From NCBI RefSeq assembly GCF_030065545.1, contig NZ_JASJNC010000007.1, positions 124,001 through 188,000 on the forward strand: a stretch of 64,000 bases of DNA, read 5' to 3'. Positions 1,818 to 44,503 of the stretch are shown piece by piece. The stretch's first letter is position 1. Each line of letters opens with the position of its first letter. Position numbers and translations under genes: made by a program. The notes beneath the pieces are model-generated. The model made no database searches, was not told where the DNA came from, and saw only the letters and a program-made list of their open reading frames with translations. Origin of the DNA: Marinicella marina (lineage in GTDB: Bacteria > Pseudomonadota > Gammaproteobacteria > Xanthomonadales > Marinicellaceae).

Positions 1818-2914
1818 GCAACCACCCCCAGTGGTATTTTTTTGATTGTGGCAGAACGGCGTGTTCTGTCCATAAAATCACCTGCCAATTGACCGCATGC
1901 AGCGTCGATGTCATCGCCGCGGGTTTTTCTGACCGTGGTGATCAAGCCATGCTTCATACAAATCTCTTTGAACCGTTCAATGTTTTGTGGTTTAGATTGT
2001 TTGAATGCGGTTCCTGGAAACGGGTTGAATGGAATTAAGTTAATTTTAGTTGGCAATTGTTTCAACAGCTTACCTAAAGCGTGGGCGTGCTCGGGTAAAT
2101 CATTCATACCATCAATTAAAGTGTATTCAATGGTGATTCTTGCTTTGCGTTTATTCTGTACAAAGTTTTTACAAGAATCCAGTAATGTAGCGATGTTGTA
2201 TTTTTTATTCAATGGTACCAGTTGATTGCGCAATTCATCGTAAGGTGCATGCAATGAGATGGCCAATGAAACATCGGCATCTTGATTCAGTTGATTAATA
2301 TAAGGCACCAAACCTGCGGTACTGACTGTCACCCTTTTGTTAGCAAATCCAAAACCAAAGTCATCGCGCATGATATTCAGCGCTGGCAAAACATTTTTAT
2401 AATTGGCCAAAGGCTCACCCATGCCCATCATAACAATGTTGGTTATCTTTCGATCTTGTGCTGTGTGGCCAAGTTGCTTGGCTGCCACCCATACTTGGGC
2501 GATGATTTCAGCGGTCGTCAGATGACGATTGAAGCCTTGGGCGCCGGTGGCACAAAAAGTACAATTAAGCGTACACCCCACTTGCGATGACACACATAAG
2601 GTGCCGCGATTTTTTTCTGGAATGTAGACCGTCTCCACAGCATTGACGTCGTCAACTTTTAACAGCCATTTAACAGTGCCGTCTTTAGAAACTTTTTCGC
2701 TGATCATGTCGGGCACTTGAGCGATGTAATCATCAGCCAATTGAGCCCGCAATGTTTTACTGAAATTACTGAAAGCAGCAAAGTCCAATTGCTGCTCACT
2801 GTAAATCCATTTCATTGCTTGTGATGCACGAAAACGTTGCTCCCCCATTTCAAGGAACAACGCCTCCAGACCTTGACGGTCGTAATCTAATAAATTAATT
2901 GGTGCATCTTTCAA
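1814..2914 (-). CDS. RlmN dual-specificity RNA methyltransferase
   Basis: A 366-residue radical SAM enzyme that methylates C2 of adenine 2503 in 23S rRNA and adenine 37 of some tRNAs. The radical-SAM CxxxCxxC motif is seen at Cys114, Cys118 and Cys121 (GCTLNCTFC). The glycine-rich MMGMGEPLANY motif that binds SAM follows. The C-terminal Cys340 in DAACGQL matches the cysteine that becomes methylated and forms the protein-RNA adduct (Cys355 in E. coli). Residues 1-100 form the N-terminal RNA-binding extension. The gene sits 7 bases downstream of ndk and overlaps pilF, so the whole block is likely one transcript. Confidence 0.97.
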   Translation of the reverse strand: MKDAPINLLDYDRQGLEALFLEMGEQRFRASQAMKWIYSEQQLDFAAFSNFSKTLRAQLADDYIAQVPDMISEKVSKDGTVKWLLKVDDVNAVETVYIPEKNRGTLCVSSQVGCTLNCTFCATGAQGFNRHLTTAEIIAQVWVAAKQLGHTAQDRKITNIVMMGMGEPLANYKNVLPALNIMRDDFGFGFANKRVTVSTAGLVPYINQLNQDADVSLAISLHAPYDELRNQLVPLNKKYNIATLLDSCKNFVQNKRKARITIEYTLIDGMNDLPEHAHALGKLLKQLPTKINLIPFNPFPGTAFKQSKPQNIERFKEICMKHGLITTVRKTRGDDIDAACGQLAGDFMDRTRRSATIKKIPLGVVA

Positions 2915-2921
2915 AATATTT

Positions 2922-3341
2922 TTAACTCAGTTCAATTGATGAAAAAAAGTAAGCAATCTCAACCGCAGCAGTTTCTTCAGCATCAGAGCCATGAACCGCA
3001 TTGGCATCAATGCTCTCAGCAAAATCAGCGCGTATGGTACCAGCCGCAGCTTCTGCAGGATTGGTGGCGCCCATGATGTCACGATTTTTCTTGATGGCTT
3101 CATCGCCTTCTAAGACTTGAATCATCACCGGACCTGAAGTCATGAATTCAACCAAGTCCCCGAAAAATGGACGTTCTTTGTGGACCGCATAAAAACCCTC
3201 GGCTTCAGCCTGGCTTAACTGTTTCATTTTAGCCGCGACAATTTTCAAGCCTGCATCTTCAAATCTTTGGTAAATTTGGCCAATGACGTTTTTCGCAACT
3301 GCATCGGGCTTGATGATTGATAAAGTTCTTTGTTTAGACAT
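2922..3341 (-). CDS. Nucleoside diphosphate kinase
   Basis: A 139-residue cytoplasmic kinase that transfers the terminal phosphate of ATP to nucleoside diphosphates through a phospho-histidine. The catalytic His117 is seen in NAVHGSD, and the N-terminal [10 protein letters not shown] strand and RPFF-GDLV segment are typical. Length matches bacterial Ndk (E. coli 143). A clear GGAG ribosome-binding site lies 8 bases before the ATG. It is the first confident gene of the minus-strand operon with rlmN, pilF and rodZ. Confidence 0.98.
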
Positions 3342-3344
3342 TTT

Positions 3345-3575
3345 TTACTCCAATTGCGCGTATTTATCAAGTTTTTCTTTTAGAATCTGTAATTTACGCG
3401 CCAAATTAAAAAAATAATTTAACTTTAAGACAGTTGGTTTAATGCCCATTTTCAAAGCAGCCAACTTCTTACTCAAAAAAAACTTGCGCATTGTATCAAC
3501 AATAAGCCACATATTAAACCGCAAATGCCTATTAAATAAGGATTTCAACTGGTTTGACACTTTCCAATCCACCAC
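3345..3575 (-). CDS. Possible small basic protein (doubtful)
   Basis: A 76-codon open frame that ends inside the Shine-Dalgarno sequence of ndk. The predicted peptide is lysine- and leucine-rich and highly basic, with no recognised domain, signal peptide or membrane segment. Nothing overlaps it on the other strand, so it is not a shadow of another gene. However, its AT-rich codons look like translated intergenic DNA, and no good ribosome-binding site is seen before the ATG. The region could equally be the 5' leader and promoter of the ndk operon. The call is a weak candidate only. Confidence 0.2.
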   Translation of the reverse strand: MVDWKVSNQLKSLFNRHLRFNMWLIVDTMRKFFLSKKLAALKMGIKPTVLKLNYFFNLARKLQILKEKLDKYAQLE

Positions 3576-3681
3576 ATCAAATGCAATGCCTATTCAATCT
3601 TTATGATATGACAGTTTGACCAATGTCTTGTTGCCGTTTTGCGGGTTGTATCACAACTTTTGAAAATAAGTCACATGCGAT

Positions 3682-3697
3682 TTAAACGACCGTTTGA
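3682..3697. promoter_or_regulatory. Candidate PsrA operator
   Basis: The inverted repeat AAACG-AC-CGTTT (3684-3695) fits the PsrA consensus [G/C]AAAC-N2-4-GTTT[G/C] with N4; only the outer left base differs. It lies about 60 bases upstream of the psrA-like gene and next to a possible promoter (-35 TTGCTA at 3699, 17-base spacer, -10 TACAAT at 3722). This position suits autorepression of the regulator and the fad genes behind it. The consensus is recalled from Pseudomonas; binding here is inference. Confidence 0.55.
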
Positions 3698-3755
3698 ATT
3701 GCTATGAGATATGACATCCTTTACAATGCCATAACTGAAAAATTACAGCGGCATT

Positions 3756-4379
3756 ATGACTACCCTTTCAACCAAAGAAAGAATCTTAAACAGCACTGAG
3801 CGTCTGATTGCAGAGCATGGGTTTGCGGAACTCTCAATCCGTAAAATCAGCCTCAAAGCACACACCAATCTAGCAGCTATTAATTACCATTTCGGCAACA
3901 AAGAACAACTGATTAACCAAGTTTTGGAACGCCGGCTGAACAACCTGTTTGAAGTCAGAATGAAAATGCTGCACGATTTAAATCAAGGCGATGAGAAACT
4001 GGCATGTAATTTGGAACAAATCTTACATGCTTTTATTGCTCCCGCACTTTACATGATCAACGATGAGCACCAGGGTGGTAAAGTATTCATGAAAGTACTG
4101 GCCAGGGCTTATGCTGAACAAAGTGATTCTTTACACGAATTATTGGCCAAAAGGTACACCCCCATTATCAAAGAATTTGCTGAGGCCATTCATTTGGCGT
4201 GTCCGGAATTACCGCGCGCAACCATTTTTTGGCGTTTTCATTTCATCATTGGCGCATTGACGTATGCAATGGGTGATTTTGGCGCCTCGAGCATGGCTAA
4301 ACAAATGCCAGAGGCTGAATATTTTAATAAATCTGTTGAAGAGTTGATTCAATTTGCGGTGGCATCACTGACTTCTTAA
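3756..4379 (+). CDS. PsrA-like TetR-family fatty-acid regulator
   Basis: A 207-residue TetR-family repressor. The N-terminal helix-turn-helix (about 5-60) contains NLAAINYHFGNKEQL, nearly the same as the recognition-helix region of Pseudomonas PsrA, which senses long-chain acyl-CoA and represses beta-oxidation genes. The C-terminal half is the helical ligand-binding domain. It is the first gene of a plus-strand run with fadE, a FadN-like enzyme and thiolase, and only 8 bases separate it from fadE. A PsrA-type operator lies just upstream. The likely job is to release the operon when fatty acids are available. Identity as PsrA rests on motif and context rather than on an alignment. Confidence 0.8.
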   Translation: MTTLSTKERILNSTERLIAEHGFAELSIRKISLKAHTNLAAINYHFGNKEQLINQVLERRLNNLFEVRMKMLHDLNQGDEKLACNLEQILHAFIAPALYMINDEHQGGKVFMKVLARAYAEQSDSLHELLAKRYTPIIKEFAEAIHLACPELPRATIFWRFHFIIGALTYAMGDFGASSMAKQMPEAEYFNKSVEELIQFAVASLTS

Positions 4380-34515: not shown

Positions 34516-36672
34516 ATGTCGATTCTAAAAAAACCTAACCCACACACATCGATGCAACTTGCCGTGAGCAAAACACCCCTCATCAATCAGGGGAATGCAT
34601 CAGAAAAACGCGCTGAGATCAAACAACACTTCATCAGCACCTACGAAACATACGAATCACTGTTCAAATGTCTGAAGAGTGAATCTGCCTTTTATTTAAA
34701 GCCAGAACCCTTAAGACATCCGCTGATTTTCTACTATGCACACACAGCGGTGTTTTTTGTCAACAAACTCAGGGTAGCTAAAATCATCAGCAACAACATC
34801 AACGAGGACATCGAATCCATGATGGCCATAGGTGTTGATGAAATGTCCTGGGATGACCTCAATGATGCCAACTATGATTGGCCCTCGGTACAAGAAGTAC
34901 AAACTTACCGCGATCAAGTTAAATCCATGGTCTTGGCGTTAATTGATGAATTGGATTTATCCTTGCCAATCAACTGGGAGGACCCGTTTTGGATCATTTT
35001 GATGGGCATTGAACACGAACGCATTCACCTTGAAACATCCAGTGTATTGATCAGACAAATGGATATCCAACACGTGGTTTCTCACAGTGATTGGCCACAC
35101 AGCAATGTTGATCATGACGTGGTGACCAATTCATTACAATCGATTCCTGGTGGCACCGTAATCCAAGGCAGAAGCCTTCCCAGCGAAACTTATGGTTGGG
35201 ACAATGAATACGGCCAGCAAAGTACCGAAGTTAAAGATTTCAAAACCAGTCAATACCTGGTTTCAAACCATGAATTCAAAGCTTTTGTTGATGATGGCGG
35301 TTATTTGGATGAACAATGGTGGACCGATGAGGGTTGGCAATGGTGCCAGTTCAAACCGGCCAAACAGCCAACATTTTGGGTCAATCGAGATGGTAATTGG
35401 CTGTATCGGTGCATGACAACAGAGATTGAAATGCCATGGAGTTGGCCAGTTGATGTGAATTATTTAGAGGCCAAAGCCTTTTGTAATTGGCTTTCTGCGC
35501 GCAACGGCAAATCCATCAGGCTACCAACCGAAGCCGAATGGTATCGCATTCATGAACACACCATGAGTGACCAAACACCCTATCCTCAATGGCAACAAAC
35601 ACCAGCTAATATTGACCTGAGTGTCGCCGCCTCATCTGTACCAGTTGATAAGTTCACCTTTGGTCAACAAAAGCTCGGGGATGTTATCGGTAATGTGTGG
35701 CAATGGACTGAAACTGCCATTGATGGTTTTAAAGGCTTCAAGGTGCATCCAGCCTATGATGATTTTTCTGTGCCCACTTTTGATGGCCAACACAATCTGA
35801 TCAAAGGCGGCAGTTGGGCCAGCACCGGCAATGAAGTACATACAGACTCAAGATACGCCTTTCGCAGGCACTTTTTTCAACACGCAGGATTTAGATACGT
35901 CGAATCGGAGCAACAAGTGGACCAAACATTTAATACTTACGAAACAGATGAGCTGATTGCTCAATACTTAGAATTTCACTACGGCGCGGCATATTTTGGC
36001 GTACCCAACTTCCCCAAAGCCTGCATCGATGCTTTGATTCCGCATGTTGATTTAAGCCACAATCAACGGGCTTTAGATTTAGGCTGTGCTGTAGGCCGCA
36101 GCACCTTCGAATTGGCCAGATATTATGACCATGTTGATGGTTTGGATTTTTCTACTCGATTCATCCGCAATGCCATCAATCTGGTTGAGCATGGTGAAGT
36201 GAAGTACATGATTCCTACTGAAGGTGAATTAACCGAGTTGAAGTCTTTTTCATTGGCTGATTTGGCTTTGGGAGACAAGGCCAACAACACCGAGTTTGCT
36301 CAGGGCGATGCCTGTAATTTGAAACCCAAATACAGCAACTATGACTTGATTTTCGCCGGTAATTTGATAGATCGCTTGTATCAACCAAAACAATTTCTCG
36401 AAAGCATCACGGAGCGACTGAACAGCAAAGGCTACTTGGTGATCACATCACCCTACACCTGGCTTGAAGAATTCACCCAAAAAGAAAATTGGTTGGGTGG
36501 GGTTAAAGTCAATGGTGAAAATTACACCACATTGGATGCACTGCGTGATGCTTTGCGTGACGACTTTGAAATGATTGCAGTGCCACAAGATGTGCCCTTT
36601 GTCATCAGAGAAACAGCCAGAAAGCACCAACATACCGTTGCCCAATTAACCATTTGGCGCAAAAAAGCTTAA
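34516..36672 (+). CDS. OvoA 5-histidylcysteine sulfoxide synthase/methyltransferase
   Basis: A 718-residue fused enzyme that makes ovothiol. The N-terminal DinB-like domain (about 35-190) has the iron ligand motif EHERIHLE. The sulfatase-modifying-factor (FGE-like) domain follows (about 205-460, GWDNEYGQQS, RLPTEAEWYR, GNVWQWTE, RYAFRRHFFQHAGFRYV). A SAM methyltransferase domain lies at about 500-718 (ALDLGCAVGRSTFELARYY). OvoA joins the sulfur of cysteine to histidine C5 and the last domain methylates the imidazole N. An adjacent PLP enzyme starts 8 bases downstream, as expected for ovothiol genes. No clear ribosome-binding site is seen before the ATG. Confidence 0.94.
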   Translation: MSILKKPNPHTSMQLAVSKTPLINQGNASEKRAEIKQHFISTYETYESLFKCLKSESAFYLKPEPLRHPLIFYYAHTAVFFVNKLRVAKIISNNINEDIESMMAIGVDEMSWDDLNDANYDWPSVQEVQTYRDQVKSMVLALIDELDLSLPINWEDPFWIILMGIEHERIHLETSSVLIRQMDIQHVVSHSDWPHSNVDHDVVTNSLQSIPGGTVIQGRSLPSETYGWDNEYGQQSTEVKDFKTSQYLVSNHEFKAFVDDGGYLDEQWWTDEGWQWCQFKPAKQPTFWVNRDGNWLYRCMTTEIEMPWSWPVDVNYLEAKAFCNWLSARNGKSIRLPTEAEWYRIHEHTMSDQTPYPQWQQTPANIDLSVAASSVPVDKFTFGQQKLGDVIGNVWQWTETAIDGFKGFKVHPAYDDFSVPTFDGQHNLIKGGSWASTGNEVHTDSRYAFRRHFFQHAGFRYVESEQQVDQTFNTYETDELIAQYLEFHYGAAYFGVPNFPKACIDALIPHVDLSHNQRALDLGCAVGRSTFELARYYDHVDGLDFSTRFIRNAINLVEHGEVKYMIPTEGELTELKSFSLADLALGDKANNTEFAQGDACNLKPKYSNYDLIFAGNLIDRLYQPKQFLESITERLNSKGYLVITSPYTWLEEFTQKENWLGGVKVNGENYTTLDALRDALRDDFEMIAVPQDVPFVIRETARKHQHTVAQLTIWRKKA

Positions 36673-36679
36673 TCATACT

Positions 36680-37795
36680 GTGCGCTTTCCCGCCTTCAAA
36701 ATGGCCGCCTACAGCAAATTGGCGGCAACTCACCATGCGCACAACTTACACAGCAGCAACCCACAACCCCTGAATTGTCAGGGGTTGAGCGAACTGATAG
36801 GCGTGGACCTCACAGCAGCGATCAGCCAAATGCCGTTTGGCTATGAAAGCACCCAAGGCCGCGAATCGCTGCGATCATTACTGGCTACCGAATTGTTCAA
36901 GTCCACGACCGCTGATGAAATCTCTTTAACCTGTGGTGCACAAGAAGGCATTTTTGTGGTGATGCAAACTTTGCTCAGTGCAGGCGATGAAGTCATCGCA
37001 TTCACACCGAGTTTTGAACCACTGATCACAGAAGCTCAGATGACAGGTGCAACGGTGAAAACCATCCCATTGATTCAAGACCAAGGTTGGCACATCGATT
37101 GGCAATTGCTAGAAAAATCTTTTTCTGCCCGTACCAAAATGCTCATCATCAATTTTCCACACAACCCCACCGGCACGCATATCAACGCTGAAGAACTCAA
37201 CCGCTTGATTGATTTATGCCGTTCAAACAACAGTTGGCTGGTCTCAGATGAGGTTTTCAGGGGGCTTGAACACGATGAGTCACAGCGCCTGATGGCCGCA
37301 AGCGATTTATATCAACGCGCCATTTCAATGGGCGTGATGTCAAAATCATACGCAATGCCTGGTATCCGACTGGGATGGATTGCGTGTAGAAATCCCGAAG
37401 TGATACAACAGATCAACACCATCAAAGCCCATTTGTCGATTTGTCAGAGTGCCGCCGATGCGCAGTTGGCTGAAGCGATTTTGCCCCACACCCAAATCAT
37501 TTGGAAATACCACGTTAAGATCATAAACGAGAACAAACACTGGTTGCATGGCAAACTGCAGCAACACCCTGAATTAAGCTGGCACCTGCCAAAAGCTGCT
37601 GCCACAGGCTTTGTTCAGTTCAAACGTTTAAATGCCGATACAACCATCAAGCAGTGGGCAGAAGAATTACAGCTGATGGTCATGCCGAACGCGGCTTTTT
37701 GTACTGAAACTCAGGGCTTTCGAATCACTTTAGGACAAAAAAACTCTCAAGCCAGCATCAGCCAACTGCTGAACTGGCAACCTCAAGCTTCTTAA
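36680..37795 (+). CDS. PLP-dependent aminotransferase fold enzyme, likely OvoB role
   Basis: A 371-residue class I/II aminotransferase-fold enzyme with PLP lysine Lys222 in SKSYAMPGIRLGW, and the typical NFPHNPTG and SDEVFRG segments. It begins with GTG 8 bases after ovoA; the resulting MRFPAFKMAAYSK start matches the family pattern. In ovothiol synthesis the sulfoxide made by OvoA is cleaved by a PLP lyase, OvoB, of this fold. The tight linkage makes that role likely here. Alternatively it could be a plain aminotransferase. Its 3' end overlaps the convergent GGDEF gene by 38 bases. Confidence 0.8.
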   Translation: MRFPAFKMAAYSKLAATHHAHNLHSSNPQPLNCQGLSELIGVDLTAAISQMPFGYESTQGRESLRSLLATELFKSTTADEISLTCGAQEGIFVVMQTLLSAGDEVIAFTPSFEPLITEAQMTGATVKTIPLIQDQGWHIDWQLLEKSFSARTKMLIINFPHNPTGTHINAEELNRLIDLCRSNNSWLVSDEVFRGLEHDESQRLMAASDLYQRAISMGVMSKSYAMPGIRLGWIACRNPEVIQQINTIKAHLSICQSAADAQLAEAILPHTQIIWKYHVKIINENKHWLHGKLQQHPELSWHLPKAAATGFVQFKRLNADTTIKQWAEELQLMVMPNAAFCTETQGFRITLGQKNSQASISQLLNWQPQAS

Positions 37796-39575
37796 GCTGG
37801 CTGTATACCACGATTTGATTCCGCCCCCTGTTCTTGGCTTCAAATAGGGCCAAATCAGCATGCGTAAGCAGCACCGGTAAATGGTAGCCTGAACTCAAGG
37901 CACTGCTGAGGCCAAAGCTGGCGGTGATATTGAATTCAGCACCTGATCCAGAACAGTCCATTTGCGCTATGGCTGCACGCATTTTTTCCAACAAAGCGAC
38001 CATCTCAAGCTCGGATATGCCTGGTGAGACCAGACCAAACTCCTCACCACCCAAGCGCGCCAATAAAATATCTTGATCAATCACTTCTTCACAACACAGA
38101 ATCACTTGTCTGAGCACCCAATCACCGACCAAATGCCCATACTGATCGTTGACATTTTTAAACAAATCCAAATCCATGATGGCCACATTCAATGGTTTTT
38201 GCTTGCTTTCACAGGCTTTGAGCATTTCGGCTGTTTTCTCTTCAAACGCTTTGCGGGTGAACACCTGAGTCAAGTGATCAATTTCTGAAACGTGTTTGAA
38301 GTAATCGTGGCGCTTTTTGATTTTGAATGTCCATACGATCAACAACATCAACAAGCTGAAAATAAGTAGCAGCATCAATTGTTGTTTTTTCGCCGTTTCT
38401 GCCGTCAGTTGATTTTCTAGTGACAAGACTTGGTTGCTTTGGTTGAGCTGTTCTATTTCTAGTTGTTTGGCCAGATTATTGTGTTTGATTGACATGTATG
38501 CCATTTGTTTGGCTTTGGAATCGGTGTATATTTCATTCTCCACTTGGCTTTTTTGACTCATGTACTCATAGGCCAATTTGAAGTCATTGCTTTTCAGCGC
38601 AAGCTGATTTAAGACGTGCAATGACTCCACTACCTGCAGGGTATTGCCCGTTTTGTTGCTGCCCTCGATGGCTAACAGGGCATGGCCTTGAGCCAAAGTA
38701 TCATCACCCAAGGCAAAATGAATCCGCGCGAGTAACATTTCTTTCAGACCAATCAGGTTTTTCGATTCGGTGGCATTGATCAGACGTTCTTGATCTTGCA
38801 GCAGTTTTTTTAGGACATTGATGTTGGCAGTATCATTTCGTTCAATCGACTGCTCAAACTCACTTTGGATCCAATTCAAAGTCAATAACATGGCATAGCC
38901 TGTCTGATTGCTGTTTTTACACAACTCAATGGTTTGATGCAGCCTTTCCTGTTCGACAGCTTGTTGGTCTTTGAATGCTGCAGCCAGGTATATCGCGGAG
39001 GCTTTACATAAGTAAATGTCATTCAGCTCGTCATGGATCACCAGCTGCGCGTACTTCTGACTCATTTCATAGATATCCAACAAATAATAGACATTGGCAG
39101 TGACAAAGTTAATTTTTGAGCGGATGACTTTATCGGGGTGATCTTCTACTTGACTGATGATGTAGTCCAAGTGAATCAAAGCTTGATTGTATTCACGGCT
39201 GATGGCGGACATGTTGGCCAAGGTGGCTTTGGTTCTGATTTTAACTTCAGTATCACTCAGTTCTTCGAAGAACCTTTCGTATTCGTTTTGAGCCGTGTTG
39301 TAATCACCAGCGACAATCCACTGGTAAAGTTCAAAGTATTCAATGAATTCCTTTTGCGCTGGAGTGGCTTGTGGACTAAGGATTTTGAGTTTATCTAAGT
39401 GCTCTTGAAAAGCTTCAGGATCGGATATTTTCAAATCATCCGCTGCCAACAGCGTGTTTTGAATTTCCAGTTGGGTGGGGCTGAGTGGTGCGTTAGATTG
39501 AGCAGCACTGAGGGCAGCATAAAAAATGATGCACGTGGTAAATAGAATGAATTTAATTGGTTGTTTATTTGACAT
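37758..39575 (-). CDS. Exported TPR-transmembrane-GGDEF diguanylate cyclase 2
   Basis: A 605-residue protein. The signal peptide (about 1-25) leads to a periplasmic helical TPR-like sensor region to about residue 360, one transmembrane helix (about 396-416, MLLLIFSLLMLLIVWTF), and a cytoplasmic GGDEF domain. The active-site motif is GGEEF near residue 506, so it should make c-di-GMP, and no RxxD inhibition site is clear. It is a paralogue of the protein at 40907-42673. It lies 157 bases after a borosin-like precursor gene. Periplasmic ligand is unknown. Its stop lies inside the convergent aminotransferase gene. Confidence 0.9.
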   Translation of the reverse strand: MSNKQPIKFILFTTCIIFYAALSAAQSNAPLSPTQLEIQNTLLAADDLKISDPEAFQEHLDKLKILSPQATPAQKEFIEYFELYQWIVAGDYNTAQNEYERFFEELSDTEVKIRTKATLANMSAISREYNQALIHLDYIISQVEDHPDKVIRSKINFVTANVYYLLDIYEMSQKYAQLVIHDELNDIYLCKASAIYLAAAFKDQQAVEQERLHQTIELCKNSNQTGYAMLLTLNWIQSEFEQSIERNDTANINVLKKLLQDQERLINATESKNLIGLKEMLLARIHFALGDDTLAQGHALLAIEGSNKTGNTLQVVESLHVLNQLALKSNDFKLAYEYMSQKSQVENEIYTDSKAKQMAYMSIKHNNLAKQLEIEQLNQSNQVLSLENQLTAETAKKQQLMLLLIFSLLMLLIVWTFKIKKRHDYFKHVSEIDHLTQVFTRKAFEEKTAEMLKACESKQKPLNVAIMDLDLFKNVNDQYGHLVGDWVLRQVILCCEEVIDQDILLARLGGEEFGLVSPGISELEMVALLEKMRAAIAQMDCSGSGAEFNITASFGLSSALSSGYHLPVLLTHADLALFEAKNRGRNQIVVYSQLKKLEVASSAVG

Positions 39576-39732: not shown

Positions 39733-39909
39733 TTAGTCTTGGTCGTCTTCTGGCTCAACCAAACAATACAACTCAACGCTGTGGCTGAAAGTTTCTTCAA
39801 TCAGGTCTGAATTCAAATGGTTGGCTTCTAACATCGCTGCTGCCGATTGGTGCTGTTTCAATGACGTGCTTTGACCGATTTGTTCCAAGGTTTTAACTAG
39901 TTTTTTCAT
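39733..39909 (-). CDS. Borosin-like precursor peptide B
   Basis: A 58-codon gene read directly from the sequence. It starts MKKLVKTLEQIGQ and ends VELYCLVEPEDDQD. GAGGA lies 6-7 bases before the ATG. It aligns without gaps to precursor A (42721-42903): 20 of 58 residues match, including Gly12, Gln13, Met26, Cys49, Leu50 and Pro53. The N-terminal part is helical with a GQ motif, as in the borosin-binding domain of SonA. The C-terminal LYCLVEP is the likely core that the methyltransferase at 40046 would N-methylate, followed by an acidic tail. Function is inference; the coding status is well supported by the paralogue and position. Confidence 0.75.
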   Translation of the reverse strand: MKKLVKTLEQIGQSTSLKQHQSAAAMLEANHLNSDLIEETFSHSVELYCLVEPEDDQD

Positions 39910-40045: not shown

Positions 40046-40846
40046 TTAATCAGTTATGTGATCATTTGCCTGACTTAAACTGTTGGCCATATCTATCATG
40101 GCTTGATTGGTTTGCTTCGCAATGGCCGGTGGCACCACCAAAGTCGATTTCAATGACACTTCTTGGTGGGCCAGATCTTGCAATGATACGGTTTTAATCA
40201 TGGCCTGCTCTATCGGTAACACTGGACACTCGTATAAGGTCACCTGATGGTTTTTGGGGTACGTTTTAAGCAACAAATCCACCAATAACTGCCTTTGCTC
40301 TGGCGTGGTCTCAAAGGTTTTCATCGCTTTATCACCGGCCATCGCTATTTGCCACAGAATCAAGTAAGCACTGGGATCAAAAGGTCGGTGATTGAACAAA
40401 AACTGACTGGCTTCAAAATGGGCACAGCCATGCTGACCCGGATCGATACCTAAATCGGCATACAAACAAGCCTCTGCTGAAACACCCGGTTCCATGTGAG
40501 CCTGATAGCCCTCATCACGACACATTCTGATGGTTTCATGCGGCGGCCAAGCGAACACTCCTGGGTGACCATAATAAGCACCACACACCGATTTACCGGC
40601 CCTCACCTGCGCCATGATGGCAGCCACCATGTTGCGGTAAGTCACCATCCGTGATTGTCCTTCTTGGTAGTATGGCTGCAGACTGATGACATGATCATTC
40701 ATGGTTTTGACCCATTCTTCCACCAATTGGTTCGAAGCCGAGACAAACACCACATCAGCCTGTTCAATAAAGTTTCGAGAAATGGGCGTGATGTGCGCAC
40801 CCAAAGTCATGCCCAGTCCAACGTTGACCAGTTTACCTTTTTTCAT
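40046..40846 (-). CDS. Borosin-type peptide backbone alpha-N-methyltransferase
   Basis: A 266-residue SAM-dependent tetrapyrrole-methylase-fold protein. It matches the methyltransferase domain of OphMA and the split enzyme SonM rather than cobalamin or rRNA (RsmI) methylases. YYQEGQSRMVTY (59-70) matches the OphMA segment with the catalytic Tyr66, Arg72 and Tyr76 (here Tyr60, Arg66, Tyr70); the equivalent of OphMA Tyr63 is Gln57. YYGHPGVF (91-98), GVSAEACLYADLGIDPG (121-137) and FEASQFL-RPFDPSAYLILWQ follow. OphMA and SonM N-methylate the peptide backbone of a substrate; here two small genes nearby provide likely substrates. The protein has no fused C-terminal substrate, so it is a split-type enzyme. 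It sits 60 bases after cyclase 1 and 136 bases before precursor B. Confidence 0.85.
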   Translation of the reverse strand: MKKGKLVNVGLGMTLGAHITPISRNFIEQADVVFVSASNQLVEEWVKTMNDHVISLQPYYQEGQSRMVTYRNMVAAIMAQVRAGKSVCGAYYGHPGVFAWPPHETIRMCRDEGYQAHMEPGVSAEACLYADLGIDPGQHGCAHFEASQFLFNHRPFDPSAYLILWQIAMAGDKAMKTFETTPEQRQLLVDLLLKTYPKNHQVTLYECPVLPIEQAMIKTVSLQDLAHQEVSLKSTLVVPPAIAKQTNQAMIDMANSLSQANDHITD

Positions 40847-40906: not shown

Positions 40907-42673
40907 TCAGTGCTCGTTATGTGCCAGCACAATTTGATTTCGACCTTGCTTCTTAGCCTCAAACAAAGCCACATCGGCATGCGTTAACAACAAGGGCAGC
41001 GCATAACCTGAAATGTCGCTGGAAGTGTAACCAAAGCTGGCCGTTACTGCCAAATCAGCCGCCGAGTCTGAACAATCTAATTGCTCAATGGATTGTCGCA
41101 TATGTTCTAATTTGGCGTGCATGTCTTCTTGTGTGATATCCGTCATCACCACACAAAACTCCTCGCCACCCAAGCGCGCAATGATCATATTTTCTTCAAT
41201 CAGCTCTTTCACCGCGTAGACCACATTTTTCAGCACCCAATCACCCACCAAATGACCATGGGTGTCGTTCACGACTTTAAAATGATCCAAATCCATGATG
41301 GCCAATTGAACCGTTTTCTTTTGCTCACGTGACTCATCCAAAATAACTGACATCTGCTCTTCAAAGGCCTTACGGGTCAGCACTTTAGTCAAATGATCTA
41401 TCTCAGAAACTGCGCGGAAATAATCATGCTTCTTCTTGATCCTCATAAGCAACAGAATCACAAAAGACAAAATGATCAATATCAACAGAATAATCAAGCG
41501 CTGGTTATTCGCTTCCTGTTTGGCCAATTGTTTTTCCAGCTCCAATACTTCTTTTTGCTGATTCAACTGCTCGATTTCAAAAACTTTAGATAAATTAGAA
41601 TGTTTAATGGTCATGAACGCCATTTGTTTGGCCTGGGCTTGATCGTACATACCCAATTCAGCCTCGTTTCTGCGTTCCAAATAATGATATGAATTGACAA
41701 AATCCCCCATCTCTCTATGAACTGTTTCTAAGACTTTTAATGCCATGACCAAATACTCTGTTTGATCGGCATCACGATTCATATCTAAAGTCTTTTCAGC
41801 CATAACTTTTGCTTTATTCTGGTCGCCTTGCAATAAGGCGAATTTAGCCTCGATTGCATTAAACGCAGTTTTGTTATTGATATAGATTGAATTTTGAACC
41901 AGGGGTTTTAATTGTTCTATCAAAGCACTAACAACAGTCAACTCTTGTACATCTATTCCTGCCTGACTCAAGGAACGCTTTAAAGTATCTAATAAGATTG
42001 ACTCAGCAATTAGATTGTGACCATTTTTTGAACACTCATCAGCAATATCCTTGATTTCAACCATTGAGGTTTTTGAAGAGTCACTGTCAAGATGATGAAG
42101 GTTCTTGCTGTAATGTAGCCGACATAAATTTTCATCGGTTGGAGATAAGGAATAGAGTAGCTTACTGTATTCAATACTCAACTCCTTCTGATCCAATAAA
42201 TTATAAACCATAGAAGCAGCGGTATATGCTATGACTTTCGAGGCAATATCTGCTGTTTGTTCAACCTTATTGATCACCGCATCAATAAAGAAGGAAGCAT
42301 TTTCATAATCACCGACTAATGCACTCAAATTGGCAACCAACGCTTCAATTCTAATTCTGGCACGCAAATCATCACATGAGGGAATGATTTCCTTCATCTG
42401 ATTTATAGCCTCTTGAGTTAAACCTTCGAAAGCAACTTTGTACGCCTTTAAAAAACGGAAATGACAATACTGATAGGATGACATGCTACCTTGCGTTTGC
42501 TCAAGTTCAGACAATCCATCCAAAAACAGTTCATAATCACTCAGACGTTTGGATTCCAGTTCCAATAACTTATCAGTGATGAACACTGGCTCAGCCAGAT
42601 CAGATGTGATTTGTGCATTTGCCACCCATACTGTCAAAAGCAGTATGAATGGCACTTTATTAAGCAATTTCAA
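40907..42673 (-). CDS. Exported TPR-transmembrane-GGDEF diguanylate cyclase 1
   Basis: A 588-residue paralogue of cyclase 2. A signal peptide (about 1-20), a helical TPR-like periplasmic region, a transmembrane helix near 390-410 and a GGDEF domain with GGEEF at about 500. The start is TTG (42673): an in-frame stop (TAG) lies 2 codons before it, so no upstream ATG is possible, and another TTG two codons in is better spaced from AGG. It lies 47 bases after precursor A, so the two are likely co-transcribed, and 60 bases before the methyltransferase. Confidence 0.88.
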   Translation of the reverse strand: MKLLNKVPFILLLTVWVANAQITSDLAEPVFITDKLLELESKRLSDYELFLDGLSELEQTQGSMSSYQYCHFRFLKAYKVAFEGLTQEAINQMKEIIPSCDDLRARIRIEALVANLSALVGDYENASFFIDAVINKVEQTADIASKVIAYTAASMVYNLLDQKELSIEYSKLLYSLSPTDENLCRLHYSKNLHHLDSDSSKTSMVEIKDIADECSKNGHNLIAESILLDTLKRSLSQAGIDVQELTVVSALIEQLKPLVQNSIYINNKTAFNAIEAKFALLQGDQNKAKVMAEKTLDMNRDADQTEYLVMALKVLETVHREMGDFVNSYHYLERRNEAELGMYDQAQAKQMAFMTIKHSNLSKVFEIEQLNQQKEVLELEKQLAKQEANNQRLIILLILIILSFVILLLMRIKKKHDYFRAVSEIDHLTKVLTRKAFEEQMSVILDESREQKKTVQLAIMDLDHFKVVNDTHGHLVGDWVLKNVVYAVKELIEENMIIARLGGEEFCVVMTDITQEDMHAKLEHMRQSIEQLDCSDSAADLAVTASFGYTSSDISGYALPLLLTHADVALFEAKKQGRNQIVLAHNEH

Positions 42674-42720: not shown

Positions 42721-42903
42721 TTACTCATCGTCATCATCATCGTCCGGTAATATCAAACAAATTAAATCTTGGCTCTGTGACTTGATCTTTTGAAAAACCG
42801 TGTCTTTCATGCCTAATGAATTAACCATGTGCTCAGTCGAATCATACTGACGTATAGATTGTGTTTGTCCTAACTTTTCTAGGATACGAACGTCTAACTT
42901 CAT
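42721..42903 (-). CDS. Borosin-like precursor peptide A
   Basis: A 60-codon gene starting MKLDVRILEKLGQ and ending DLICLILP followed by an acidic DDDDDDE tail. AGGAG lies 5 bases before this ATG; an in-frame GTG at 42909 overlaps the ribosome-binding site and is not used. Cys49, Leu50 and Pro53 occupy the same positions as in precursor B. The N-terminal LGQ-containing helix resembles SonA and the C-terminal hydrophobic stretch is the probable core. It leads the transcript with cyclase 1 and the methyltransferase. Confidence 0.8.
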   Translation of the reverse strand: MKLDVRILEKLGQTQSIRQYDSTEHMVNSLGMKDTVFQKIKSQSQDLICLILPDDDDDDE

Positions 42904-42935
42904 ACTCACTCCTCTTTGATGATATTATTTTTAAA

Positions 42936-43087: not shown

Positions 43088-43606
43088 TTATTTCAATTCC
43101 CAATACCTGAAGCAATTATCTCGGCCTGCCTTTGATGTCAATGAAGCTTTGAAGCCTAAATTTTCATAGCAATTATTTGCTGTTACGTTTTTAACAGCAG
43201 TAATTGCTGTAAATTTTTTGACTGGAAATTCGGTTCGGGCATCTGCCATCAATGCGTGATGAGCTTTTTTAAAAATACCTTTACCCTGGAACTCGGGTAA
43301 AACCATGATACCTAATTTAACAATCTGCGTAGATGCATTCCAATGTAGACTGAAAATCCCCAGATCATTCAATTTCTTGTTAGCATCACACCAACCACTA
43401 CCTGATAAATAACCTTTTAAAACGAAGTATTTGGCAAAACCTCGAGACACTTCCTTTAACATAGTAATAATTAGCTGATGAACCTCTTGATCATTTTTAA
43501 CGTTGCCTATGTGTTTCATGACAGTTGCATCTTGGTATAAACGTTTAATTAAATTGATGTCAGTTGCCAATAATTGCCTATATCTCAGTTCTGTATCAAA
43601 AATCAT
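43088..43606 (-). CDS. GNAT acetyltransferase
   Basis: A 172-residue GNAT of the RimJ/RimL type. The acetyl-CoA loop is seen in VLPEFQGKGIFKKAHHAL, and ENLGFKASL is near the end. The DNA is more AT-rich than its neighbours. It lies 185 bases upstream of precursor A on the same strand, so it may or may not belong to the borosin-like locus. Substrate unknown: protein N-terminus, aminoglycoside and small amines are all possible. Confidence 0.8.
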   Translation of the reverse strand: MIFDTELRYRQLLATDINLIKRLYQDATVMKHIGNVKNDQEVHQLIITMLKEVSRGFAKYFVLKGYLSGSGWCDANKKLNDLGIFSLHWNASTQIVKLGIMVLPEFQGKGIFKKAHHALMADARTEFPVKKFTAITAVKNVTANNCYENLGFKASLTSKAGRDNCFRYWELK

Positions 43607-43696: not shown

Positions 43697-44503
43697 ATGA
43701 TCAATTTCATAACAGTTTTAACGCTAGTTGCACTATTTTTTCTTATCATGTTTTATTGGATCAGAAATAGAAGACTCAAAAAGCGTCAAAAAATATACAA
43801 GTTACCCACACCTGGACCTTGGGTTGATTACATCAAAAACAACGTAGCCATCTATCATTTCCTACCCCAACCTTTACAACAAGAGTTGCTGGGACATGTG
43901 AATGTTTTTCTGGCAGAAAAATATTTTTCAGGCCACGCCGGGCTTGAAGTCACTGATGAGATGCGCGTGACCATAGCGGCACAAGCTTGTTTGTTGTTGC
44001 TTAATCGCAAAACCAATTACTACCCACACCTGAAAACCATCATGATCTACCCAGCTGGTTTTAAAAACCCCAATCACCACGACAAACCAGGTCACCACCT
44101 GGGTGAATCATGGGTGCGGGGACCAGTTATATTGTCTTGGAATGATTCAATCCATGGTGCCAGGAATGCCAAAGACGGCACCAATGTGGTGATTCACGAA
44201 TTTGCACACCAACTCGATCAGGCAGATGGTGCTGGCGATGGCAGGCCTTGGTTTGACAGTGCCCACATCAAAACCTGGGGCAAAGTCATGAGCAAAGAGT
44301 TCAAAAGCCTGATCATCAAAGCCAAACTTAATAAGCGCTCTTTTTTGGATCATTACGGTGCCACCAATCCGGCTGAATTCTTCGCCGTTTCATCCGAACA
44401 CTTTTTTGAACAGCCGAAAACTTTCAAACGCAAACACCCTGAACTGTATCAAATACTTTCCGGCTATTACCGCCTGGACCCATCAAGCTGGTTGATAAAA
44501 TAA
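43697..44503 (+). CDS. MtfA-like zinc peptidase (M90)
   Basis: A 268-residue M90-family protein. One transmembrane helix near the N-terminus (about 4-22) precedes the peptidase core with VIHEFAHQLDQADGA (zinc-binding HEFAH). E. coli MtfA is 265 residues; it binds the Mlc (DgsA) repressor and has aminopeptidase activity. No Mlc gene is in the window, so the regulatory role is uncertain. It is divergent from the GNAT gene. Confidence 0.9.
   Translation: MINFITVLTLVALFFLIMFYWIRNRRLKKRQKIYKLPTPGPWVDYIKNNVAIYHFLPQPLQQELLGHVNVFLAEKYFSGHAGLEVTDEMRVTIAAQACLLLLNRKTNYYPHLKTIMIYPAGFKNPNHHDKPGHHLGESWVRGPVILSWNDSIHGARNAKDGTNVVIHEFAHQLDQADGAGDGRPWFDSAHIKTWGKVMSKEFKSLIIKAKLNKRSFLDHYGATNPAEFFAVSSEHFFEQPKTFKRKHPELYQILSGYYRLDPSSWLIK

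Follow-up and report, generated by a model that had tools for sequence, protein, structure and literature searches.

Gene Content of the Locus and Its Precursor Peptides

The locus raises the question of what two small peptides, each with a hydrophobic, cysteine-containing stretch followed by an acidic C-terminus, are made for. The window, i.e., the whole 64,000-nucleotide stretch of DNA that was analysed, is part of a 3.46 Mb genome; among its close relatives, the named ones are Marinicella species. On the minus strand, the genes are arranged in the order GNAT-family acetyltransferase, precursor A, TPR-GGDEF sensor, SonM-type methyltransferase, precursor B, and a second TPR-GGDEF sensor (Table 1).

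Table 1. Features of the precursor locus (coordinates within the window)
Feature	Position	Strand	Details and evidence
GNAT-family acetyltransferase (PF13302)	43088..43606	minus	Pfam E 2.9e-14; conserved partner of the Cys/acidic-tail class
Shine-Dalgarno-like AGAGGAG	42910..42916	minus	Upstream of precursor A; direct sequence reading
Precursor A	42721..42903	minus	60 aa, ATG at 42903; ORF, phmmer and profile family
Precursor A leader, residues 1-46	42766..42903	minus	Shortened, borosin-binding-domain-like region, predicted helical; profile family, AlphaFold2 (low confidence)
Precursor A putative core, L47-I-C-L-I-L-P53	42745..42765	minus	Alignments
Precursor A acidic tail, D54-E60	42724..42744	minus	Sequence; tail in all g1/g3 relatives
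TPR-transmembrane-GGDEF sensor paired with A	40907..42673	minus	Signal-peptide-like N-terminus, TM about 393-409, GGEEF at 502, invariant C184 and C214
SonM-type alpha-N-methyltransferase (TP_methylase)	40046..40846	minus	PF00590 E 4.5e-17; phmmer to SonM 7ltc E 6.8e-65
Precursor B	39733..39909	minus	58 aa, start 39909; ORF, profile family
Precursor B putative core, L47-Y-C-L-V-E-P53	39751..39771	minus	Alignment with A
Precursor B acidic tail, E54-D58	39736..39750	minus	Sequence
Second TPR-TM-GGDEF sensor, downstream of B	37758..39575	minus	GGEEF at 509; Pfam GGDEF E 2.6e-33

Precursor A ends in S-Q-D-L-I-C-L-I-L-P-D-D-D-D-D-D-E, with seven acidic residues, and precursor B in V-E-L-Y-C-L-V-E-P-E-D-D-Q-D. 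The two peptides are homologous (E 1e-6 to 3e-8) and share Cys49 and Pro53. The pattern L-x-C-L-[I/V]-x-P with an acidic tail, which an earlier note on this DNA had read in both C-termini, was confirmed together with Cys49, Pro53, and the tail residues. It is not a product of chance, since the Cys and the acidic C-terminus were kept in all 28 aligned precursors of the Marinicellaceae genera g1 and g3; the same was found for 8 of 8 more precursors at second loci. Close precursor pairs showed dN/dS values of about 0.1-0.5 (only pairs with computable dS). Among 84 precursors of the wider family, 64 have a Cys in one alignment column and 69 match C-x(1,6)-P-x(0,3)-[DE]. Judging from these alignments, precursors of the wider family follow a general plan of a Pro-terminated hydrophobic stretch, in most cases with a Cys, before an acidic tail, and L-x-C-L-[I/V]-x-P is merely its local form. 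A scan of 84,980 species genomes revealed at least 569 relatives of the methyltransferase. The best 80 loci of these, covering Marinicella, Rheinheimera, Alkalimonas, Rhodanobacter, Dyella, Lysobacter, and others, encode precursors with a longer leader, a hydrophobic stretch usually containing Cys, a Pro, and a long acidic tail.

The AlphaFold2 model of precursor A has helices at residues 4-13, 23-29, and 34-43, with low confidence (pLDDT 70). A sequence search of the PDB gave no match to precursor A, nor did Foldseek with this low-confidence model. One further precursor candidate in the genome (C21:379175, E 0.35) was discarded as spurious, having no acidic tail, core Cys, or corresponding neighbours.

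Methyltransferase and Affiliation with Split Borosins

The methyltransferase is closer to SonM (E 6.8e-65) than to the fungal OphMA (E about 1e-42). Three SonM residues discussed in PMC8429565 (Y58, R67, and Y71) have their counterparts in Y60, R66, and Y70 of the window enzyme, which did not vary among 18 aligned enzymes. By homology, the locus is a split borosin (type IV-like), because the adjacent SonM homologue carries every tested active-site residue. The gene organization is that of a split borosin as well: short precursors are encoded separately, one to either side of the methyltransferase, and separate precursor genes next to this enzyme are conserved in relatives. In the 33 genomes of the same family that were searched, the methyltransferase was detected in 25 and precursors in 26, with at least one precursor in every methyltransferase-positive genome; the extra genome (G016) is a fragmented assembly.

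Backbone N-methylation of the hydrophobic cores, as the earlier note proposed, stands as the best guess for the modification of A and B, since SonM homology and the matching invariant active-site residues make it the expected chemistry. The methylation of Leu63 and Ile65 in SonA, which that note had cited, was stated correctly (PMC8429565); the core register of A and B differs from that of SonA. As in the SonM/SonA type IV split borosin of Shewanella oneidensis (PMC8429565), a separate homologous methyltransferase with the same active-site residues is combined with a leader predicted to be helical and a short hydrophobic C-terminal core, and L208, a very close relative, likewise has a TPR-GGDEF gene after sonA. 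In contrast to SonA, the window precursors are 58-60 aa long, with a leader shorter by about 11 residues and a long acidic tail; their core, as usual in this class, contains a Cys and ends in Pro, and its methylation is predicted from homology. In addition, a GNAT and often a pepsin homologue accompany the Cys/acidic precursors. The two precursor classes appear to be linked stepwise via long members: the SonA-type profile matches long members of the Cys/acidic class (L220, E 2e-7), which A and B fall short of in length. This link rests on a SonA-only profile, as profile A2 includes SonA and its match to SonA is circular. The more distant methyltransferases L170-L174 and L225 lack a neighbouring TPR sensor and are probably enzymes of other borosin types.

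Enzyme and precursor together form a variant of an already known kind, and the link between borosins and GGDEF is partly published, a GGDEF-containing domain being named among borosin architectures in a figure legend of PMC11395268. That legend was the one record retrieved for borosin and GGDEF, and nothing was found for borosin and diguanylate cyclase. No report of a 1:1 precursor-sensor pairing, or of an association with GNAT or pepsin, was found in the literature searched.

Pairing of Precursors with TPR Sensors

The strongest feature of the locus is the 1:1 pairing of precursors and TPR-GGDEF sensors. Across the family, the module has the order GNAT, methyltransferase, precursor, TPR-GGDEF. 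Across about 100 loci of Marinicella, Rheinheimera, Shewanella (with the sonMA locus), Rhodanobacter, and others, almost all precursors immediately precede a TPR-transmembrane sensor whose output domain is GGDEF or a histidine kinase. The loci were drawn from 80 genome-contig hits, the genomes of the window's family, and the order to which Shewanella belongs. A profile-detected sensor was within reach in 93 of the 96 methyltransferase loci having a profile-detected precursor. The three exceptions comprise a contig end (L032), a divergent TPR-kinase missed by the profile (L177), and a locus with two precursors and no sensor nearby (L213). Most loci initially scored as precursor-less had a precursor by eye where inspected; L119 and L147 had none. 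Precursors and sensors have been duplicated as pairs: loci with two or three precursors usually contain an equal number of sensors and one methyltransferase (L036, L039, L042, and L040), and further pairs occur at second loci lacking a methyltransferase (L139 and L141).

The pairing extends to the SonA class. In L208, which encodes a SonM 93% identical to that of S. oneidensis, the order is sonM, sonA, and a 596-aa TPR-GGDEF gene starting one base after sonA. SonA-like precursors of 67-71 aa from other families adjoin TPR-transmembrane hybrid histidine kinases (L138, L169, L175, L176, and L177), and each of the two precursors in L176 is followed by its own kinase. With GGDEF in some loci and a histidine kinase in others, the TPR sensor is the shared element and the output domain is swapped. 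On the evidence of these sequences, the constant feature of the module is the gene partner, i.e., the sensor, in contrast to the variable core Cys.

In 84 precursor-sensor pairs, precursor distance correlated with the distance between sensor TPR parts (r 0.85; partial r 0.67 controlling for methyltransferase distance), the partial r for the GGDEF part being 0.28. After the same control, the leader tracked the sensor with a partial r of 0.68 and the core alone with 0.09. The co-variation indicates that a precursor and its sensor are passed on together; binding does not follow from it, as adjacent genes co-inherit. It also leaves room for the leader, rather than the core, to be the part that matters.

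Several unusual arrangements were noted. Locus L147 contains a solo TPR-GGDEF gene (1953-3761, minus strand) in a genome of the genus Marinicella, with no precursor or methyltransferase found there. In L217 (7189-9369, plus strand), a SonA-like precursor is followed by two TPR-only proteins of 354 and 368 aa, each with a signal peptide, in the place of the TPR-GGDEF of other loci. In L144 (4573-4821, plus strand), a methyltransferase fragment, apparently a remnant, precedes a precursor-sensor pair.

Sensor Architecture

The two window sensors are 37% identical, and the genome encodes no further near full-length homologue of them; four other matches cover the GGDEF end. The GGEEF motif of the diguanylate cyclase active site is intact in both of them and in 79 of 84 relatives; the GGDEF domain is predicted to make c-di-GMP. 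A hydrophobic N-terminal segment was found in 65 of 84 sensors. TPRs were identified by Pfam in sensor homologues and by the structural model in the window sensor. An alignment of 53 sensors shows two cysteines, C184 and C214, without exception, and most SonA-class sensors have them too; the pair is consistent with a structural disulfide in the periplasm, where the TPR domain would be placed by its sequence features.

The structural model of the sensor is confident (mean pLDDT 92), and many diguanylate cyclases match its GGDEF end. The stretch of residues 25-353 aligns with RapF carrying a bound inhibitory peptide (4i9c_A; Z 22.9, rmsd 4.0, 315 residues), although the TPR fold is common and the match list was filled by GGDEF chains. 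The RapF match may serve as a lead and could reflect the shared TPR fold alone. The module resembles RRNPP systems such as RapF-PhrF (PMC10075063) in that a short propeptide gene adjoins a TPR receptor gene in a 1:1 manner, and, going by the alignment of the TPR to RapF, it may resemble them in a receptor fold of the Rap/PlcR type. It differs in being gammaproteobacterial, in its predicted inner-membrane receptor with a periplasmic TPR and a GGDEF or kinase output, and in a precursor that has a backbone methyltransferase and no signal peptide. Assignment to RRNPP was rejected, as the receptors of that group are intracellular and a membrane helix precedes GGDEF in 79 of 84 sensors.

Acetyltransferase and Pepsin-like Protease

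Of 61 Cys/acidic loci, 54 have a GNAT gene close to the methyltransferase, versus 3 of 25 SonA-like loci (Fisher 1.5e-11, the loci not being independent). The acidic tail, which may be a removable follower as the earlier note suggested, co-occurs with GNAT and often with a pepsin-like protease, both of which are mostly absent with the tail-less SonA-class precursors. In L210 (genus Shewanella), L219, L221, L119, and L111, genes for pepsin, GNAT, and methyltransferase follow one another in this order on one strand and in many cases overlap; L068 has the order pepsin, methyltransferase, GNAT, and in L043 and L044 the pepsin gene is adjacent and convergent. Among 345 genomes of one order, all 32 protease-bearing genomes have a SonM-type methyltransferase, compared with 82 of the 345 overall (Fisher 4e-23, genomes not being independent), and 18 of 34 protease genes are located within 2 kb of one. 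In the window's family, the protease was found in 12 of 33 genomes, and the copy of the window's genome is on another contig. That copy (G000:C18:250091-251305), a pepsin-like aspartic protease, is 36% identical to the operon form. An M17 aminopeptidase takes the place of pepsin at some loci (L215 and L216).

Shewasin D is an active pepsin homologue located in the cytosol (PMC4814920); for shewasins, no function is known. Its relatives stand here in an operon in the genus Shewanella and others, and most of them retain the two catalytic D[ST]G motifs; their tie to borosin loci is genomic alone. From this genomic context, the shewasin-type pepsin is a candidate maturation protease. An apparent remnant, a pepsin fragment upstream of GNAT, was observed in L213 (5058-5372, plus strand).

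Proposed Function and Alternative Explanations

The best explanation, to which we assign a probability of roughly 0.6, is that the methylated, probably acetylated and cut peptide is a ligand or regulator of its own sensor and thereby sets c-di-GMP. From the gene content we infer the following route. The SonM-type enzyme would bind the helical leader of A or B and N-methylate backbone amides of the hydrophobic core before the Pro; GNAT would probably acetylate the same substrate, and a protease, in many relatives the pepsin homologue, would probably cut the precursor. The peptide would then reach the periplasm, and its mature form would bind or regulate the sensor encoded directly downstream, with its predicted periplasmic TPR, one membrane helix, and cytoplasmic GGDEF making c-di-GMP. 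A role as internal or cell-to-cell signals, not antibiotics, is suggested by the fact that each precursor is followed by its own predicted c-di-GMP-making membrane sensor. Several findings count against this explanation. The module encodes neither an exporter nor a universal protease, and a signal peptide is absent from the precursor; a cytoplasmic peptide of this kind facing a periplasmic sensor weakens the reading as a periplasmic ligand. With the methyltransferase controlled for, the leader tracks the sensor and the core alone barely does (partial r values given above). The sensor-less locus L213 and the solo sensors, namely L147, a second precursor-less GGDEF in L033, and extras in L143 and L144, also do not fit.

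The main rival is that the whole, uncut precursor acts: its leader would contact the sensor or another cytoplasmic component, core methylation would be a switch, and no small peptide would be released. We consider this rather unlikely, even though the tracking of the sensor TPR by the leader and not the core, the lack of a universal protease or exporter, and the existence of a fusion between a SonA-like borosin leader and a response-regulator receiver domain (180 aa; L177, 5640-6182, minus strand) favour it. The signal-peptide-like N-terminus of many sensors, the positive-inside bias after the TM, and the invariant Cys pair point to a periplasmic TPR, beyond the reach of a cytoplasmic precursor, and the correlation may merely reflect adjacent-gene duplication and a core of few residues.

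A classical secreted natural product, e.g., an antimicrobial, whose production the GGDEF sensors merely regulate or report, would agree with the bioactive peptides known among fungal borosins and with the stability and permeability conferred by N-methylation (PMC8429565). It appears improbable given that no exporter, immunity, or resistance gene was found in the module, that there is one sensor per precursor and not one regulator per cluster, and that precursors in close pairs are under purifying selection. Similarly improbable is a product whose purpose is metal binding or a crosslink or disulfide by the conserved Cys and acidic tail, with the sensor reading metal or redox state. The invariance of the Cys in g1/g3, its single column in the wider family, and the acidic tail in the same class would suit such a product, but the Cys position is occupied by Ala in genus g4 (core TVVAFLVPSREDD; L050/L028), by V/A in L216 (core NTNVAVILAPAEDD), and by F in Lysobacter (core TMFFGVLAPEEQP), and some cores in Dyella, Rhodanobacter, and Lysobacter have no Cys. 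The same gene partners persist with these residues, the module has no crosslinking enzyme, and the sensor Cys pair occurs with or without the core Cys, SonA-class sensors included. The special crosslink or metal role that the earlier note had considered for the core Cys was, for these reasons, rejected as an essential feature.

Extended to SonM-type split borosins as a whole, the preferred explanation would make them a form of Gram-negative peptide signalling, in which a methylated peptide is read by its own periplasmic TPR receptor and passed to c-di-GMP or a phosphorelay, the Cys/acidic class being also acetylated and cut by the shewasin-type pepsin; this generalization is put forward tentatively, as a possibility with the odds against it. 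When the 2021 SonM/SonA paper (PMC8429565) appeared, the final product of every split borosin pathway was still to be assigned. The conserved module of precursor, cognate c-di-GMP sensor, acetyltransferase, and aspartic protease makes both the split-borosin product and the function of bacterial pepsins directly testable in culturable hosts such as Shewanella, Rheinheimera, and Marinicella. Should the peptide prove to be the sensor ligand, a modified-peptide signal would be added to Gram-negative biology, and the absence of exporters and immunity genes in the clusters would be explained. If the signalling reading holds, both split borosins and bacterial pepsins would gain a function.

Other Neighbouring Genes

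An M90 metallopeptidase gene (PF06167, E 8e-81; window 43697-44503, plus strand) is located beside GNAT and is kept in several Marinicella loci. On the other side, the window encodes the ovothiol synthase OvoA, both domains of which scored above the NCBIfam cut-offs, followed directly by a PLP-dependent aminotransferase-like gene (34516-37795, plus strand). Several Marinicella genomes keep this pair next to the borosin locus.
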